Shown piece by piece: positions 7,321 to 15,071 of a DNA stretch of 40,715 bases. Below the pieces are notes generated by a model. It did not search any database and was not told where the DNA came from. It saw only the letters and a list, made by a program, of their open reading frames with translations. Position 1 is the first letter of the stretch; every line of letters starts with the position of its first letter. A program made the position numbers and the translations under genes. Source of the stretch: Candidatus Scalindua sp. (lineage in GTDB: Bacteria > Planctomycetota > Brocadiia > Brocadiales > Scalinduaceae); assembly GCA_018670825.1 (NCBI GenBank), contig JABHIW010000042.1, positions 1 to 40,715 on the forward strand, in the 5' to 3' direction.

Positions 7321-8259
7321 ATGAAAATATCACTATTAACGTTACTCGCTATTATTATGGGTGTGACCCTTTTATGTTCAGAAGCTTTTGCTTCAAGTAC
7401 TATGATTTCTGTTCACCGTTTTAAGGAGCTTGAACAAAAAGTCAATGAATTAGGTTTAGAGGACCTCCCTAATACTTTAGTTGTTATGGATGATGATGAC
7501 ACTCTAACAATGATGGGTTGTCAGGGACAAACAGGAGCTAATACTTGTCAATACCTTGGCGGACCTGCCTGGTTTAGTTGGCAAAGCGGACTGGCCAAAG
7601 ACTCTTCTTATTGCGTAGCAAACAGCTTTGAGGACTTACTTAAAGTATCTTCTTTGCTATTGGCTATCAACGATATGGTTTATACCGAACACGATGTACC
7701 TACCGTATTAAACTCCTTAACCGGATCAAAAGTCCACCTTTTAGTTCTGACCGCCAGAGGGCCGAGCAATTCATCTACCACAGCAAGACAATTTTCCGAT
7801 CTTCCTGTAACCGGACCAGAACATATGAATTTCTTAGAGTTAATCAGACATAATTCCTTGATTGGCAATAGAAGTCAAATACACAGTATCGCCAGCCCCT
7901 TCATACCCTGTGATGAGAGTAAAGCTAAATCAGTCAGTTATCAACAAGGCATTATGTATGTGGCCGGGCAAAATAAAGGAGAAATGTTGAAATGTCTGCT
8001 CAATAGTACTGAATCCTCTTTCATTAAACATATTTTTTTTATTGATGATACTCTAGAAAATGTTAAAGACGTTCATGCCGCATTCGAAGATAGTAAAAAA
8101 TACAATGTTATAGCTATTCATTATATGGCATTAGAAACCCATAAAAATGCTTTAACAAAAGGGCCAATGGCAAAGACCTATCAGAATAATGCAAAGGGTA
8201 GATGGGATAAAATCAAGAAAACATTAGATCTCGAATTACAAAACCCGGCCATTCCTTAA
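7321..8259 (+). CDS. secreted DUF2608 HAD-like phosphatase
   Basis: A 312-residue protein with a cleavable-looking signal peptide: charged start, a hydrophobic stretch at residues 4-20, then EAFAS around 21-25. It should therefore be exported. HAD-superfamily marks are motif I DDDDT (D57 nucleophile, D59 acid/base in DxDxT), motif II LTARG with T144, and a late FFIDDTLENV carrying the motif-IV acidic pair. The whole layout fits DUF2608, a HAD family known mainly from Legionella- and chlamydia-type bacteria; its substrates are unknown. GGAG 5-6 bases upstream supports the ATG. One hand-counted line is 35% GC, like the chromosome and unlike the next gene. It ends 52 bases before the fusion enzyme and may be cotranscribed with it. 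Confidence 0.8.
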   Translation: MKISLLTLLAIIMGVTLLCSEAFASSTMISVHRFKELEQKVNELGLEDLPNTLVVMDDDDTLTMMGCQGQTGANTCQYLGGPAWFSWQSGLAKDSSYCVANSFEDLLKVSSLLLAINDMVYTEHDVPTVLNSLTGSKVHLLVLTARGPSNSSTTARQFSDLPVTGPEHMNFLELIRHNSLIGNRSQIHSIASPFIPCDESKAKSVSYQQGIMYVAGQNKGEMLKCLLNSTESSFIKHIFFIDDTLENVKDVHAAFEDSKKYNVIAIHYMALETHKNALTKGPMAKTYQNNAKGRWDKIKKTLDLELQNPAIP

Positions 8260-8311
8260 TCGGGTCAAGATAGGAGAAGTTACAAACAATTTAAATTAAG
8301 GAGGAAAAGAG

Positions 8312-11300
8312 ATGAGCAACGAAAAATACGCGTTACAATTTAGCCAGATCGGTGTTCCCTATTCGCCGGACCACTCTATCTTTGCCACCTATTATTTGAA
8401 GGAAGGAGCCACGGACACCTATAAGCGGCTGAAAAAAGCGGCACAAATCACCCAAAAAGCCTGCGGGAAAACCGATTACAAATCCGTGGTGATCTGCGGC
8501 GTCAGTTTCGGCCAATGGGTACAATGGTGCAAGAATAGCGACCTAACCATTCCCAAAGGTTTCAGCGATACATCCATTTTAGATGTGTCTCCACCTTACA
8601 AGAACACGGGTGGGAATTTCCTGTTCCATATTAAATCCGACCGTTTCATAGAGTGCCAAAAACTTTTCGATCTGATTAAAGCAGAGCTATTAGACATCAC
8701 AGACCGCATCGACCATACAATCGGAGAACGCTTACACGACGGCCGAGTCTACGGAGGCAGATTGCTGCACGGTGTAATCCGTTCAGTTGACCCCATCAAT
8801 GTTTCCGCCCGTGCCATCGTGGGTGATGAAGACATCGATCACAAAGGCTCCTGCTATGCCATTACCCAAAAATTCGTACACAACTGGTCTAAACTGGATA
8901 ACATGACGGAAGACGAAATTGAGAACATGATCGGCAGGGATAAGAAATGCAACATTATCCTCAACAACGACAAAGGCAGCCACATCAAATCAGTGCGTGT
9001 TCTCAATGATGACCGTTACAATATCCGCCTCATGGGCCAGGCCCAACCTTTCGGTATCTCTCAAACAGGGAAAGGCCGGGAAAAGGGTGTCTACGTTCTT
9101 GCATACGCCAAAAGCGGACAGAATATCAATGCCGCCCTGGATGGAATGAGGGGAAAAGGCCACAACCAATTCAAGGACAGGCATTTATTGATTTCTCCAT
9201 CAGTTGGCGGGAACTTCTGGTATATTCCCAGCGCAGAAGAGTTAAAAGTCAAAAAAGATACAGAGACTCAGCATGTGACCATGAATAAGTTTTTCGCCGA
9301 ACGCAGCAAAAACGGATACATGTTCTACAATTCCAAAGATTATCTGTACCAAATCGGTATGGGAAAATACGACCCAAAACCCGGTTTGTCGGACCGGGTG
9401 ATCGAGTTGTTGGGAATAAATTTCTCCCGTTGGAACGAGACCTGGTACACGTATCGTACCACACCACCACTACCTCACCTGGAAGACTACTTAAGAGACA
9501 AAACAGACATGAGCGAAAAAGAGATCCAAAAGATCATGAATTCATCCGTAGCCATTCGCAAGGGGTTGGCCATCAAATACAGCCTTACCGGCGCATTGAT
9601 CGAGCCGGAGTACGCCGAGAAAGCAGACTTGTTTCGCCTGAACTCCAAAGAAATTATTGTAGGTGTAATGCCTGCACTCTCGTTGGGGACCGGAACGGTA
9701 GTGATGCGTTACCTGCGTCAGGATGAAAAGATCCCGGCATTCCTGAAAAACCTCAATGAATTCTCCGCCATGGGCCATAACCTTCCCAACCATAAAACCG
9801 TACTAGACAACGGCATCGGAAAATTGATCAAAGACGTGGAAAACAAACTTGCCAAATGCCCGAAGTCCCCCAACACCCGGGAGGAAAAGGACACAATAGA
9901 TTTCTACCAATCGGTGATATACTCCCTGGAGGGTGTGCGTGATTACTCTCTTAAATATGCGGAACTGGCCCTGAGGATCAAAAATCAATTGGCTGAAAGC
10001 CAGGTGGAAGAGAGGGCGAATTTGCAGTCAGTCCACGACCGCATGAAGAAACTGGCGACAGAGAAACCGGACACCTTCATTGAAGCTGCACAATTGGTCT
10101 TTACTATTCACTCAACCCTGCACCTCATCGGTGAACCCGTCAGCATTGGCCGCCTGGACCAGTATCTGAATCCCTTCTTTGAAAAAGACAACATCAGTGA
10201 ACAAGAGGCCCAGGAAATCATCGATTGTTTCTGGATAAAAATTAGTGAGAAAGTACTGTATAACCGTAGTCATTTTGATGATCATCTTACTTACGGTACC
10301 GGTGCCGTCTGCTACAGTGCAGGGAATTTCCCGCAAGGCTCTGCCATCAACCAATGGGTCATGCAAGTTACCGTCGGAGGGTACAAAGCGAATGATGCCA
10401 AGGACCCGGAAGACGCCTGTAACGACGTTACCATGATGTGCCTGCGTTCCTCCCGCCGATTGCCATTAAATGCACCTTGCTTATCATTGCGTGTACACGA
10501 TGCTATGCCTTCCAAAATTATTAAGGAAGCCGCAAAATGCATCTTAAGCGGCGGAGCACATCCGATTTTGATCAATGATGATGCATTATGTGAAGGTTTT
10601 GAGAAATTCAATACTCCCAAAGAAACGAAAGTACCGTTAAGAAGCCTGCGAAATTTTGCATGCGACGGATGTTATGAACCTCTGTTTGAAGGGCAGAGCG
10701 AATTTGCCTTCTCCTATGTGCCCGCGTTGGATGCGTTAGAAAAAGCCCTGAACCAGGGCACCATGTACATGGCTGCCGGACCTATTCATATCACTGGCAT
10801 GAAACTCTCATTCCAGTCAAAACATTGCAGCGAAATTGAAAGTTTTGATGAATTGCTGAATATCTTTTACCAACACTATTACTACGCCATCTGTTCCTTT
10901 TACAACATGATGTTGAACGGTTACGGCAGTTTGTGGGAAGTTTGTCCCAGTCCCTATCTTTCAGTACTGTTGGATGGCTGTATTGAGAGTGGACGGGATT
11001 TAAGTAACGGCGGGGCCTTGTACCATTTAATGTCGCCAATGATTCAGGGACTCAGCAATACCATTAATTCCCTGTGGGCCATCAAGCACATGGTTTTCGA
11101 ATCCAAACAGGCCATCAGCACCTTGCCTGAGCTATTGGAGTGCCTGTTCTGCGACTGGGGATACGAAATGATAGAGCCATTCCAGGATATCTATGCAGGT
11201 AAAGATCGGGCTGATGAACGGGCCGTACGTTTCAAGGACATGCGGGAACATGCATTGGGTCTGCCGCAGTTCGGGTTTGGACATAAAGAGATAGATAAGT

Positions 11301-11971
11301 TCGGGGCAGAGATCATCAAGAATCTACAAACAATTGTGATGGACACCTTCTATCCCCCTGGTCCTGATAAAGAGTATCAGTATCCCATGCTCAACATGCA
11401 TAAACTTCAGGTAAAAGAGTTCCAGGAATTGCGCAAAAAATTGGCAGACACCTACGGTACACCGAAAAAACCTTTCCACATATTGATGTTACCAGGTGTA
11501 GGGACCTTTGAGGAGGTGGTTGGACTGGGTCTGAATAATGGGGCCAGCGCAGATGGCCGTCGCAAGGGCATGCCGTTGGAATCAGATTTCAGCGCCACGC
11601 CGTCGCAACAGGACCTACCGGTTGACCATCAGTACAGGGACATCTTCAAAGCCTTGAAGTCCTGGACGCAATATGCCATTACCCGTGGTTTCACCAATGC
11701 AGCGCCTGTGGATGTGAACATCAGGGAAGACTTTCCGGAGAAGGACCTTGTGAAAGTGATCGAGAAATTCGCAAAGGGTAAGATCGGTTCCAACTTGATC
11801 ACCATCACCTGTGCTGATCCAGAGACCTTCGACGAAGCTCTCCAGTACCCCGAGAAATATGATCTGATACGGGTGAGAATGGGTGGATGGAGTGAGTTCT
11901 TCGTAGCCATGTTCCCGGACATCCAGCAGCAACATCGCAGGAGGCCGTTATTCTTGCCCAACAAAGAATAG
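8312..11971 (+). CDS. DyP-type peroxidase-like domain fused to a glycyl radical enzyme (PFL family)
   Basis: A single uninterrupted 1219-residue frame with AAGGAGG upstream of its ATG. Residues 1-315 follow the DyP/YfeX heme peroxidase pattern: a VVICGVSFGQW strand at 59-69, TGGNFLFHIKSDR at 99-111, HDGRVYGGRLLHG at 142-154, a W-x-KLDNMTEDEIENMIGRD helix at 192-210, the expected proximal heme His at H224 (KGSHIKSVRV), QPFG at 245-248, and WYIPS near 303. The distal catalytic Asp motif (GxxDG) is not conserved; the region reads GVIRSVDP. Residues ~365-1219 are a pyruvate-formate-lyase-type enzyme. The thiyl Cys is C787 with E789 (GCYEP), as in dehydratase or lyase enzymes rather than the CC of true PFL. 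The radical Gly is G1192 in RMGGWSEFF near the C-terminus. No signal peptide is seen. The substrate is unknown. One sampled line is 52% GC, against 35% in neighbours, which suggests transfer. No radical-SAM activase is in the window. Confidence 0.85.
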   Translation: MSNEKYALQFSQIGVPYSPDHSIFATYYLKEGATDTYKRLKKAAQITQKACGKTDYKSVVICGVSFGQWVQWCKNSDLTIPKGFSDTSILDVSPPYKNTGGNFLFHIKSDRFIECQKLFDLIKAELLDITDRIDHTIGERLHDGRVYGGRLLHGVIRSVDPINVSARAIVGDEDIDHKGSCYAITQKFVHNWSKLDNMTEDEIENMIGRDKKCNIILNNDKGSHIKSVRVLNDDRYNIRLMGQAQPFGISQTGKGREKGVYVLAYAKSGQNINAALDGMRGKGHNQFKDRHLLISPSVGGNFWYIPSAEELKVKKDTETQHVTMNKFFAERSKNGYMFYNSKDYLYQIGMGKYDPKPGLSDRVIELLGINFSRWNETWYTYRTTPPLPHLEDYLRDKTDMSEKEIQKIMNSSVAIRKGLAIKYSLTGALIEPEYAEKADLFRLNSKEIIVGVMPALSLGTGTVVMRYLRQDEKIPAFLKNLNEFSAMGHNLPNHKTVLDNGIGKLIKDVENKLAKCPKSPNTREEKDTIDFYQSVIYSLEGVRDYSLKYAELALRIKNQLAESQVEERANLQSVHDRMKKLATEKPDTFIEAAQLVFTIHSTLHLIGEPVSIGRLDQYLNPFFEKDNISEQEAQEIIDCFWIKISEKVLYNRSHFDDHLTYGTGAVCYSAGNFPQGSAINQWVMQVTVGGYKANDAKDPEDACNDVTMMCLRSSRRLPLNAPCLSLRVHDAMPSKIIKEAAKCILSGGAHPILINDDALCEGFEKFNTPKETKVPLRSLRNFACDGCYEPLFEGQSEFAFSYVPALDALEKALNQGTMYMAAGPIHITGMKLSFQSKHCSEIESFDELLNIFYQHYYYAICSFYNMMLNGYGSLWEVCPSPYLSVLLDGCIESGRDLSNGGALYHLMSPMIQGLSNTINSLWAIKHMVFESKQAISTLPELLECLFCDWGYEMIEPFQDIYAGKDRADERAVRFKDMREHALGLPQFGFGHKEIDKFGAEIIKNLQTIVMDTFYPPGPDKEYQYPMLNMHKLQVKEFQELRKKLADTYGTPKKPFHILMLPGVGTFEEVVGLGLNNGASADGRRKGMPLESDFSATPSQQDLPVDHQYRDIFKALKSWTQYAITRGFTNAAPVDVNIREDFPEKDLVKVIEKFAKGKIGSNLITITCADPETFDEALQYPEKYDLIRVRMGGWSEFFVAMFPDIQQQHRRRPLFLPNKE

Positions 11972-12470: not shown

Positions 12471-13721
12471 ATGAATACAGTGACAGAAGGAAAAATGTGG
12501 TTTTTGCATTGCCAGCTTTTAACGAAAATAATGGCTAAAATCTTAGAAGAGACGAATGGGGATACTCACTTAGAGGGCATTATTCAAAAAAAAATAAATG
12601 TGCAGTTTGGTAAAATAATTGGGAACATTTCCGGCAGCCAGGATGACCTTGAATACGCTTTCTTTAGAGTGCATATTAAGCCAAAAAACGGAGATGACAG
12701 AAATCTCAAGAATGAAATAAATTCGATAATTGATGGTTTGAGTGGTCCCGCATACCGGGCTGCAAGCCACTTAGTGGGCAATGGTAATAATGAGAACGGG
12801 GTCAATACTCAATGTTCAATGAAAAAGTTACGATTCATTTTAACTATAGGATATTTAAATAGAAAATTATGCTTGGGAGCTGAAGGTGTGGTAAAAAAAA
12901 AGGGGAACTGGTACATTAAGAACAATGCTAAAAAAGTAGGTGAAATATTAAATGACAATGACAAAAATGCCATGCAGCTATTTTTAAATTGCCTAAGACC
13001 AAGGCTAAACTATATAGGGGCTGGCCCACATGATAAGAATCCGTTTAAAAAAAATGAAGATGGCGAGTATAAAATTGAAACAGAGTATACTGTTAAAATG
13101 CTCGTCGAATTATTTGACGGATTATCGATGGACGCAGAACTGGATGTGCCATTTTCAAAACTGATACATCGCCGAAGGGGATTTCCGGGGAACAATCCGT
13201 TGGATTCGCATTTACTTGGTATTGATGCGGGTGCCCATATCAACGCAATAACACCGGAGTCTACTTTAGGGAAAATCAGGCAGAGTTTGGGGTTGCCATT
13301 GAGGTGTGATATCTCCGGTACAACCGTGGACGCAATGGGATTTTGCGATACGTTCATAAAAAAAGGTCAGGAAGGCAGCAATAATAAAGAGGAAAGAATG
13401 ACATATTTGGTATCGTGCATGCTAAGCATGTGCCTGACAGGTCATCATTCTTTAGACGAGATGGCACTGGCTTTGAGTTTAGATGTGAAAGAAAAAAAAT
13501 ATGACCCATGTAATCCTGCAAGTGTAATAAAGTTGCTTGAGGAATGGTCAGGCTGGGATGGTTTTAGTTTTCCTGAGACGGACTATTTTAATAGTAAAGC
13601 CGAAGGAATCCTACGCATTGATAACCGGATACTAAAAAAATTAGAATTTACAAAAGAATTATGGGATGGTCTGGCGATACATAACAAAATAAAAATAATG
13701 AAAGCAAAGACGGACTCTTAA
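12471..13721 (+). CDS. hypothetical protein, 416 residues, unrecognised
   Basis: I do not recognise the family. The ATG has GGAG 7 bases upstream and the frame is clean, so it is probably a real gene. There is no signal peptide. The protein is rich in Lys and Asn in the first half (several KK and NDN runs). A better-ordered central segment at about residues 235-290 contains HRRRGFPGNNPLDSH, LLGIDAGAHINAI and LPLRCDISGTT. A hydrophobic stretch TYLVSCMLSMCLTGHHSLDE follows at about 308-327. HH within a small-residue context could bind a metal, but that is a guess. It sits alone after the mtaB remnant, next to a toxin-antitoxin remnant, so an accessory or defence role is possible but unsupported by motif. 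Confidence 0.6.
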   Translation: MNTVTEGKMWFLHCQLLTKIMAKILEETNGDTHLEGIIQKKINVQFGKIIGNISGSQDDLEYAFFRVHIKPKNGDDRNLKNEINSIIDGLSGPAYRAASHLVGNGNNENGVNTQCSMKKLRFILTIGYLNRKLCLGAEGVVKKKGNWYIKNNAKKVGEILNDNDKNAMQLFLNCLRPRLNYIGAGPHDKNPFKKNEDGEYKIETEYTVKMLVELFDGLSMDAELDVPFSKLIHRRRGFPGNNPLDSHLLGIDAGAHINAITPESTLGKIRQSLGLPLRCDISGTTVDAMGFCDTFIKKGQEGSNNKEERMTYLVSCMLSMCLTGHHSLDEMALALSLDVKEKKYDPCNPASVIKLLEEWSGWDGFSFPETDYFNSKAEGILRIDNRILKKLEFTKELWDGLAIHNKIKIMKAKTDS

Positions 13722-14351: not shown

Positions 14352-14474
14352 GGGACGCTCACAATTAAGATGCGCAAGACTCCAGAATACATGCAATGAT
14401 AATCTAACAAACCGCATGGGAATCCATTGAGGCCACCTTGAGTTTGAAAATGCTTGATCAGCAAAGAAATACAT

Positions 14475-15071
14475 ATGAATAAACATACTAAAATAACAAC
14501 TTTATGTCTTGCCCTCATACTTTTTAATTTCATAGTATTATTATCCAGGGTGCAACTAGCCTACCCCTTGCCTGCGGATGACGTAATTCCCCTTGTTGAT
14601 GCAGAATATTTTCCGGCAGTCCACAAGGCATTTACCAATGCTCAAAAGTCCATATTATGTGTTATGTATATGGCGAAACTGGACAAAGGGCATACGGGAG
14701 GAGATGAATATCAACTGGTCCTTGATCTCATAAACGCACATAAAAAGGGAGTAAAGGTTCTGGTTATTTTTGACCAGAATGTTAAATTCTGGGAAAAAGG
14801 CAAAAAAAGGGACATAATGGAGAGAAGGAGTGAATATGCATACGATTTGCTATTACGAGCCGGTGTTCCTGTTTATTATGACTGCAAAAACAGGGTAACT
14901 CACAGCAAGGCGATAGTTATTGATAAATATATAACGATTGTTGGAAGCACTAACTGGACTTATGGCGCATTGAGAAAAAACCACGAAGCATCGGTAATGA
15001 TAAAATCCCGGGACGTTGCACGTGCGTTTGAGCGGAAATTAAAGAAAATAGACAAAATATCAGCTAAGTAG
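14475..15071 (+). CDS. secreted phospholipase D-like protein with a single HKD motif
   Basis: The protein has an N-terminal hydrophobic segment (TTLCLALILFNFIVLL) typical of a signal peptide or anchor. A PLDc_2-type domain follows: DEYQLVLDLINAHKKGVKVLVIFD, and the catalytic HxK with downstream residues, HSKAIVIDKYITIVGSTNWT, starting near residue 143. There is only one HKD motif, as in Nuc-type endonucleases that dimerise to build the active site. Activity could be a non-specific nuclease or a phosphodiesterase acting outside the cytoplasm. I use the ATG at 14475. A TTG at 14454 is in frame, but neither has a convincing ribosome binding site. It is the last gene before the conserved cmk-rpsA group. 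Confidence 0.8.
   Translation: MNKHTKITTLCLALILFNFIVLLSRVQLAYPLPADDVIPLVDAEYFPAVHKAFTNAQKSILCVMYMAKLDKGHTGGDEYQLVLDLINAHKKGVKVLVIFDQNVKFWEKGKKRDIMERRSEYAYDLLLRAGVPVYYDCKNRVTHSKAIVIDKYITIVGSTNWTYGALRKNHEASVMIKSRDVARAFERKLKKIDKISAK

Follow-up and report, generated by a model that had tools for sequence, protein, structure and literature searches.

The window analysed here is a stretch of 40,715 nucleotides from Candidatus Scalindua sp. (contig JABHIW010000042.1, positions 1 to 40,715, assembly GCA_018670825.1), and it contains a gene that joins, in a single open reading frame, an N-terminal heme peroxidase domain of the DyP type and a C-terminal glycyl radical enzyme (GRE) of the PFL family (Table 1). 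The initial annotation of this DNA, made from the sequence alone, described one open frame with one good ribosome binding site, and the description holds: the 1219 codons are uninterrupted and AAGGAGG lies 7 nt before the ATG. The following paragraphs describe the two domains of this fusion (the window protein, P0001), the family to which it belongs, and the possible origin of its radical.

Table 1. Positions of the fusion gene, its domains and key residues, and the adjacent upstream gene in the window; alignments and counts are described in the text.
Feature	Position	Strand	Evidence
DUF2608 gene, 52 nt upstream of the fusion, same strand	7321..8259	+	PF11019, E 1.3e-33
Shine-Dalgarno-like AAGGAGG, 7 nt 5' of the ATG of the fusion gene	8298..8304	+	sequence
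DyP-GRE fusion gene, intact, 1219 aa	8312..11971	+	open for 1219 codons, ATG to TAG
DyP-type heme peroxidase domain, residues ~1-315	8312..9256	+	profiles, alignment, predicted structure
H153, aligned with the catalytic distal Asp of DypB (D153)	8768..8770	+	alignment
H224, predicted proximal heme ligand	8981..8983	+	alignment with DypB; His in 53/53 fusions
G242, place of the distal Arg (DypB R244)	9035..9037	+	alignment
Conserved inter-domain segment RSKNGYMFYNSKDYL, residues 331-345	9302..9346	+	family alignments; Y339 invariant in 53 fusions
GRE domain, residues ~350-1219	9359..11968	+	profiles, fold; PF02901 match 9743-11335
C787-Y788-E789, thiyl Cys and Glu of the CxE-type GRE active site	10670..10678	+	C787 and E789 invariant, 66/66
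G1192, radical glycine in RVRMGGW	11885..11887	+	invariant, 66/66

The N-terminal domain had been placed at residues 1-315, and profile and structure searches agree with that assignment. PF20628 (Dyp_perox_C) matches residues 165-309 above the Pfam cut-off (E 1.6e-14), and TIGR01413 (Dyp_perox_fam) of NCBIfam matches residues 39-311 (E 2.6e-21) with 76 bits, which is below its curated cut-off of 100.5. When the window protein is compared with the PDB by phmmer, the DyP matches reach residue 312 and the GRE matches begin at about residue 470. An AlphaFold model of residues 1-320 (pLDDT 87.4, pTM 0.89, 31 sequences) has DtpB as its best structural match (TM 0.79, 22% identity), followed by DypB (TM 0.74-0.78), and thus the predicted structure confirms a DyP fold. 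The residue first named as the heme histidine, H224, is indeed the predicted proximal ligand. The landmark HDGRVYGG, cited at the outset as another mark of the domain, is present, but it is not the catalytic GXXDG: its column 143 was considered as the site of the distal Asp and was ruled out by the alignment with DypB, in which the distal residue, Asp in DypB, falls at position 153.

The C-terminal part was described as a full-length PFL-family enzyme with its thiyl Cys at C787 (GCYEP) and its radical Gly at G1192, and both residues are where they were placed, in a domain that PF02901 (PFL-like) matches over residues 478-1008 with an E-value of 2.7e-98. The Gly_radical C-terminal domain stays below the Pfam cut-off (14.0 vs 22.2 bits); the motif RMGGWS is aligned by HMMER with RVAGWS of a solved GRE (2f3o). 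A model of residues 15-1214 (pLDDT 82.4, pTM 0.88, 34 sequences) finds its best structural matches among the CxE-type GRE eliminases, namely 1,2-propanediol dehydratase (5i2a/5i2g), glycerol dehydratase (1r8w) and choline trimethylamine-lyase (5fau), with target TM values of 0.72-0.76 and 18-20% identity; since the root-mean-square deviation is mostly 6-7 Å, the likeness extends only to the fold. The window protein shares with these enzymes the Cys-x-Glu and the radical Gly. In contrast to it, ordinary CxE-type eliminases carry no heme domain and depend on a radical-SAM activase. The radical loop of the window protein reads RVRMGGW where we take RVxGY to be usual, and E608 presumably occupies, as judged by eye, the place at which glycerol dehydratase has a His.

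A scan of genomes with an alignment of the C-terminal 60 residues identified 71 loci, a number that is a lower bound because the scan reaches only contigs holding one of two short patterns; a scan with a two-sequence alignment had given 253 pattern matches, none of which was confirmed as a relative. The 71 loci comprise 50 intact fusions with a length of 1200 aa or more, 13 separate GREs, one split fusion (L031) and seven fragments (L034, L036, L042, L069, L071, L084 and L090). Adding the window protein, a fusion on an Asticcacaulis plasmid and one on an IMG/VR contig to the 50 scan loci yields 53 intact fusions; some of them are near-copies (L022/L049 and several from Pedobacter). The Asticcacaulis fusion was found by tblastn on plasmids, is full length and is annotated as a 'Dyp-type peroxidase'; the same search retrieved a Hymenobacter plasmid in which PFL is spread over two frames and a separate DyP gene, itself split between frames, comes next. 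By the titles of their records, the fusions come from Actinomycetota, Cyanobacteriota (Amazonocrinis, Anabaena), Myxococcota, Bacteroidota, Pseudomonadota, Acidobacteriota, Planctomycetota, Chloroflexota, Gemmatimonadota and a Desulfobacca.

Some of these loci deserve a separate comment. The GRE gene is split into two frames at L014:11503-14048 (the Hymenobacter plasmid) and at L031:6082-10207 (Saccharopolyspora spinosa), by sequencing error or by a real break. L023 and L028 (Actinophytocola) have open frames of approximately 1590 codons, about 300 of which lie ahead of the DyP domain. The IMG/VR contig (L022, IMGVR_UViG_3300043778_000135) was considered as evidence of a viral fusion and rejected, given that its fusion and the one in Burkholderia cepacia LK29 (L049) share 99.7-99.8% identity; an integrase-like frame is seen by eye upstream, and the contig is probably of host or mobile-element origin.

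The relationship among these proteins was examined in a tree of the GRE domain with 78 rows, of which 12 outgroup rows are ordinary GREs (quick method, SH-aLRT support only). All 66 DyP-linked rows fall together (support 100), and a long stem leads to them; within this group the 53 fusions form one cluster (99) and the 13 separate GREs another (96); the window protein sits on a long branch near L033 and L052 (90). A DyP gene lies directly downstream in 12 of the 12 separate GREs that could be tested, the contig of the 13th (L092) ending inside the gene, and the GRE-then-DyP order is likewise seen in fragments L069 and L071 and in the Hymenobacter plasmid. The separate DyP of L067 has its best PDB matches in the DtpA/EfeB type, with its Asp, His and Arg aligned with theirs, and the fused DyP domain matches the DypB/DtpB type best, so that two kinds of DyP partner a single GRE clade. 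The Asp, His and Arg are kept in the 13 separate DyPs that can be read in one frame and, by eye, in that of L057. The GRE clade is distinct and tied to a DyP-type heme protein, either by fusion or by a neighbouring gene.

Conservation was counted over 66 rows, that is, the 53 fusions plus the 13 separate GREs. C787, E789, R1187, R1189, G1191, G1192 and W1193 are invariant in 53/53 fusions and 13/13 separate GREs. In total, 67 GRE columns are fully invariant; hence the conservation of the catalytic site is meaningful but not unique to those positions.

The heme pocket is more variable. Over the 53 fusions, column 153 holds Glu in 44, Asp in 4 and His in 5, while column 242 holds Arg in 48, Gly in 4 and Ser in 1, and it is the same five fusions (the window protein, L032, L038, L044 and L048) that combine H153 with the loss of Arg242 and keep the proximal His. 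Compared with DypB and DtpB, which are B-type/class P DyPs, the window protein is alike in fold and proximal His and differs in that the distal Asp has become His and the distal Arg has become Gly; most fusions have Glu and Arg instead. The two distal residues that mark a DyP-type peroxidase, the Asp of GXXDG and the Arg, are thus absent from the window protein (H153, G242). For two class P DyPs, the distal Arg is reported to be the residue that matters most (PMC8197335). As judged from its sequence, the heme pocket of the window protein would be atypical and its peroxide chemistry is doubtful, which is the main caveat as far as this protein is concerned: the protein may use an oxidant other than plain hydrogen peroxide, or its heme may serve as no more than an electron relay or a sensor.

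The fusion gene differs from its surroundings in base composition. Its GC content is 47.4%, compared with 39.8% for the window, and its GC at third codon positions (GC3) is 0.57, compared with 0.32-0.38 for five other window genes; the two halves are alike (GC 47-48%, GC3 0.56-0.57). It is the sole PFL-like gene of the source genome (G000) at E <= 1e-10, and the fusion is present in one of the 17 genomes searched within the family of the source organism. Among 392 sampled genomes of the phylum, nine match at E <= 1e-30; the only full-length match is that of G000, and the remaining eight cover GRE parts only. The gene looks horizontally acquired, as its foreign composition suggests. An assembly or annotation artefact, which the initial annotation had named as one finding that would overturn its interpretation, has a negligible probability, since the fusion is intact at 50 other genome loci, on a complete plasmid and on the IMG/VR contig, and the unusual composition is common to both halves.

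The search for an activase covered 51 fusion genomes, namely G000 and 50 others (including that of L031). The TIGR02494 activase exceeds its cut-off in 5 of the 50 and not in G000 (best 32 vs 174 bits), so that the cognate PFL-type radical-SAM activase that accompanies a GRE was not found in the source genome at that threshold. An ordinary full-length PFL (PF02901) is present in exactly the five activase-positive genomes (G401, G410, G421, G422 and G424), and in each of them the activase match lies within about 1 kb of the ordinary PFL match, and G410 has a further pair separated by 3.5 kb. The 46 fusion genomes without an ordinary PFL, among which G404 carries two fusions and G419 a fusion and a separate GRE, yielded no PFL-type activase over cut-off. 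The difference (5/5 vs 0/46) gives a Fisher p of 4e-7, with the kinship of the genomes ignored. As a positive control, the same profile finds an activase in 8/8 phylum genomes with ordinary GREs, and in 14 named control genomes PF02901 and TIGR02494 exceed their cut-offs in the same three. The genomes with separate GREs behave in the same way (0/14); of the seven fragments, this set covers the genomes of two, L069 and L071, and G419 belongs to both sets. In the fetched flanks, of up to 10 kb, the only activase-like frame is that of L046, beside an ordinary PFL.

A wider net, PF13353, catches matches in 48 of the 51 genomes. Eight are clearly higher than the rest (108-174 bits), and five of these eight belong to the 46 genomes; apart from the eight and the known activases, no match exceeds 45 bits. 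The five are NrdG-like, one being over cut-off and four reaching 100-103 vs 126 bits on the domain alone, so that 41 of the 46 genomes lack both an NrdG-like activase and one of the PFL type over cut-off.

It is well known that GREs are regarded as anaerobic enzymes, reliant on an oxygen-sensitive iron-sulphur activase. The tension between oxygen and radical that the initial annotation saw in the combination of the two domains is real: COX1 (PF00115, heme-copper oxidase) is present in 49 of the 51 fusion genomes, twice in G000, and the carriers include Acinetobacter and Pedobacter, which are aerobes, and two cyanobacteria of the Nostocaceae, which produce oxygen. The two COX1-negative genomes (G410 and G422) belong to the five that have an ordinary PFL with its activase. 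A GRE clade whose catalytic residues are intact, found mostly in genomes with heme-copper oxidases and mostly without such an activase, raises a direct question, namely, where the radical comes from.

We tentatively propose that the DyP-linked GRE clade does without a PFL-type activase and that the source of its radical, or the relay, is the attached heme domain. The heme domain as activator is the most likely single reading, even if it falls somewhat short of being probable. The heme domain would be oxidised by peroxide and would then draw a hydrogen or an electron from the GRE domain, which would yield a glycyl radical at G1192 or, directly, a thiyl radical at C787; C787, together with E789, would carry out an elimination or lyase reaction of the diol-dehydratase or choline-lyase type on a small hydroxylated substrate. 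Heme occupancy, radical transfer and substrate are what we infer in this scheme. A radical made on demand from peroxide, rather than stored, would explain the presence of a GRE in aerobes. The broader version of this proposal, that of a peroxide-driven glycyl (or thiyl) radical enzyme in which a heme peroxidase has taken the place of the radical-SAM activase and thereby opened aerobic, even oxygenic organisms to GRE chemistry, is possible and is put forward with greater reserve. Three roles had been suggested at first for the N-terminal domain, namely guarding the radical, delivering an activated substrate and channelling electrons; the comparison of genomes, in which the usual activase is missing, favours the last of these, or the making of the radical, and a guard role is possible but less likely. 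If the proposal is true, there is a second route, besides radical SAM, to start a PFL-type GRE; powerful radical reactions of the lyase and dehydratase kinds could proceed in air, triggered by peroxide, and genes labelled 'Dyp-type peroxidase', such as that of the Asticcacaulis plasmid, would be something else.

Several observations weigh against the heme domain as activator. The absence of an activase is defined by profile cut-offs in partly draft genomes, and a divergent activase could escape them; the NrdG-like activases of 5/46 genomes might serve the GRE, and G415, one of the 46, holds an activase-like remnant (a 136-aa frame, 74 bits). Two fusion genomes, the Gemmatimonadota and Desulfobacca metagenome-assembled genomes, have no COX1. 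In the window protein and four other fusions a His replaces the distal Asp and the distal Arg is missing, and in one B-class DyP an Ala at either position slows the formation of Compound I by approximately 1000-fold, as stated in the relevant part of that study (PMC6153280). Finally, a putative PFL activase has been reported in a fungus that bears the fusion, in the portion of the paper devoted to it (PMC5041501). This last point, the NrdG-like matches, the invariant catalytic residues of the GRE and the 63 radical-SAM matches of G000 at E <= 0.001, whose functions are unassigned, are all consistent with a different explanation, according to which a radical-SAM activase too divergent to be recognised acts on the GRE, and the DyP is a guard that clears peroxide near the radical or repairs it. 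We consider it unlikely, inasmuch as the profile that succeeds in all eight phylum genomes with ordinary GREs finds nothing over cut-off in the 46, and the flanks offer only the frame that accompanies an ordinary PFL in L046. In aerobes, moreover, a glycyl radical kept in store would still be exposed to O2.

The altered pocket has also been considered as a sign that the heme domain is not a catalyst but a sensor or regulator of the GRE, responding to peroxide, NO, O2 or heme. This explanation is rather improbable; it would fit best the window protein and the fusions that resemble it, because H153 coincides with Gly or Ser at 242 in the same 5/53 fusions, which keep the proximal His; against it, 48/53 fusions keep the Arg, 48/53 have an acidic distal residue, and the DyPs beside separate GREs keep their Asp, His and Arg. 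At least as improbable is the notion that the GRE domain is no longer capable of radical chemistry and assists the peroxidase as a scaffold or by binding the substrate. The lack of a PFL-type activase over cut-off in 46/51 genomes, the presence of COX1 in 49/51 and the sub-threshold Gly_radical model are all compatible with such a role, but it leaves the invariance of the Cys, the Glu, the radical Gly, R1187, R1189, G1191 and W1193 in 66/66 rows from many phyla hard to reconcile.

The initial annotation knew of no described enzyme with this architecture; a fused DyP-PFL was, however, already in print. It was described in 2016 in Chaetomium cochliodes (Ccochdyprx) and found in distantly related prokaryotes and eukaryotes, and the passages of that report on the fungal gene infer a transfer from bacteria, call its significance elusive and record an induction of 3-fold by H2O2 and of 18.5-fold by peroxyacetic acid (PMC5041501). 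Another fungal fusion is g1956 of Xylaria grammica, according to the portion of a second report in which it figures (PMC8469222). By their descriptions, the ascomycete proteins have, as does the window protein, an N-terminal DyP and a C-terminal PFL in one frame; the sections of the two papers that concern them give transcription data but no enzyme assay, and they do not deal with bacteria that lack the activase, with GRE and DyP as separate genes or with an altered heme pocket (PMC5041501, PMC8469222). No report of the missing activase of DyP-linked GREs was found in the open-access library searched, subscription journals being mostly outside the search. The architecture is thus known in outline, and what is new is a clade of DyP-linked GREs whose genomes, for the most part, lack a PFL-type activase and have aerobic oxidases.

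The neighbouring genes may say something about the substrate. Around the separate GREs and some fusions (L032, L038, L048 and L055, as well as L070 on the other strand) there is a two-domain PLD-like protein, present in 13 loci by clustering and in the flanks of only 5/53 fusions. The same cassette includes a HAD-like protein with the motifs FDxDDN, TARGH and SDDDPxN (by eye), whose HAD part had no Pfam match in the four proteins tested, and a cytidine deaminase (a cluster in four loci, one of them checked by Pfam). Trypsin and non-specific-endonuclease proteins are also among the neighbours; the 16-locus cluster c0 mixes them with glyoxalase proteins and is not a count of HAD proteins. These nucleic-acid-flavoured neighbours may hint at a nucleoside or phosphodiester-derived substrate. 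The window was considered as a holder of the GRE-DyP-PLD-HAD-cytidine deaminase cassette and rejected: its DUF2608 gene gave no hhalign match to the HAD-like cassette genes of other genomes, it has no cassette PLD, and a search of G000 for that protein, run without a positive control, found no match. A role of the fusion itself in phage defence is unsupported, since PADLOC has no model for P0001.

Downstream of the fusion, the window has a 416-aa frame at 12471-13721 (+) with no Pfam match at E <= 0.01 and, 2.5 kb away, at 14454-15071 (+), a PLD protein. The latter has a single domain and begins, as judged by eye, with what resembles a signal peptide; it is far shorter than the PLD of the cassette, which has two domains. 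The set of neighbours (PLD-like, HAD-like and sometimes cytidine deaminase) varies at L032, L038, L048, L055, L047, L063, L072, L086, L088, L089 and L091. In L047, L059 and L086 a HAD-like stretch follows the separate DyP in the same frame, as recognised by motif (Pfam E 0.007, below cut-off). A trypsin-like domain is joined to a non-specific endonuclease or PLD domain at L029:10341-12338, L038:14270-16249 and L067:11472-14273. Next to the GRE, at L063:6415-7614 and L064:6428-7609, a HAD-like stretch and then a glyoxalase/VOC-like domain share one frame (by Pfam in L063 and by alignment in L064).

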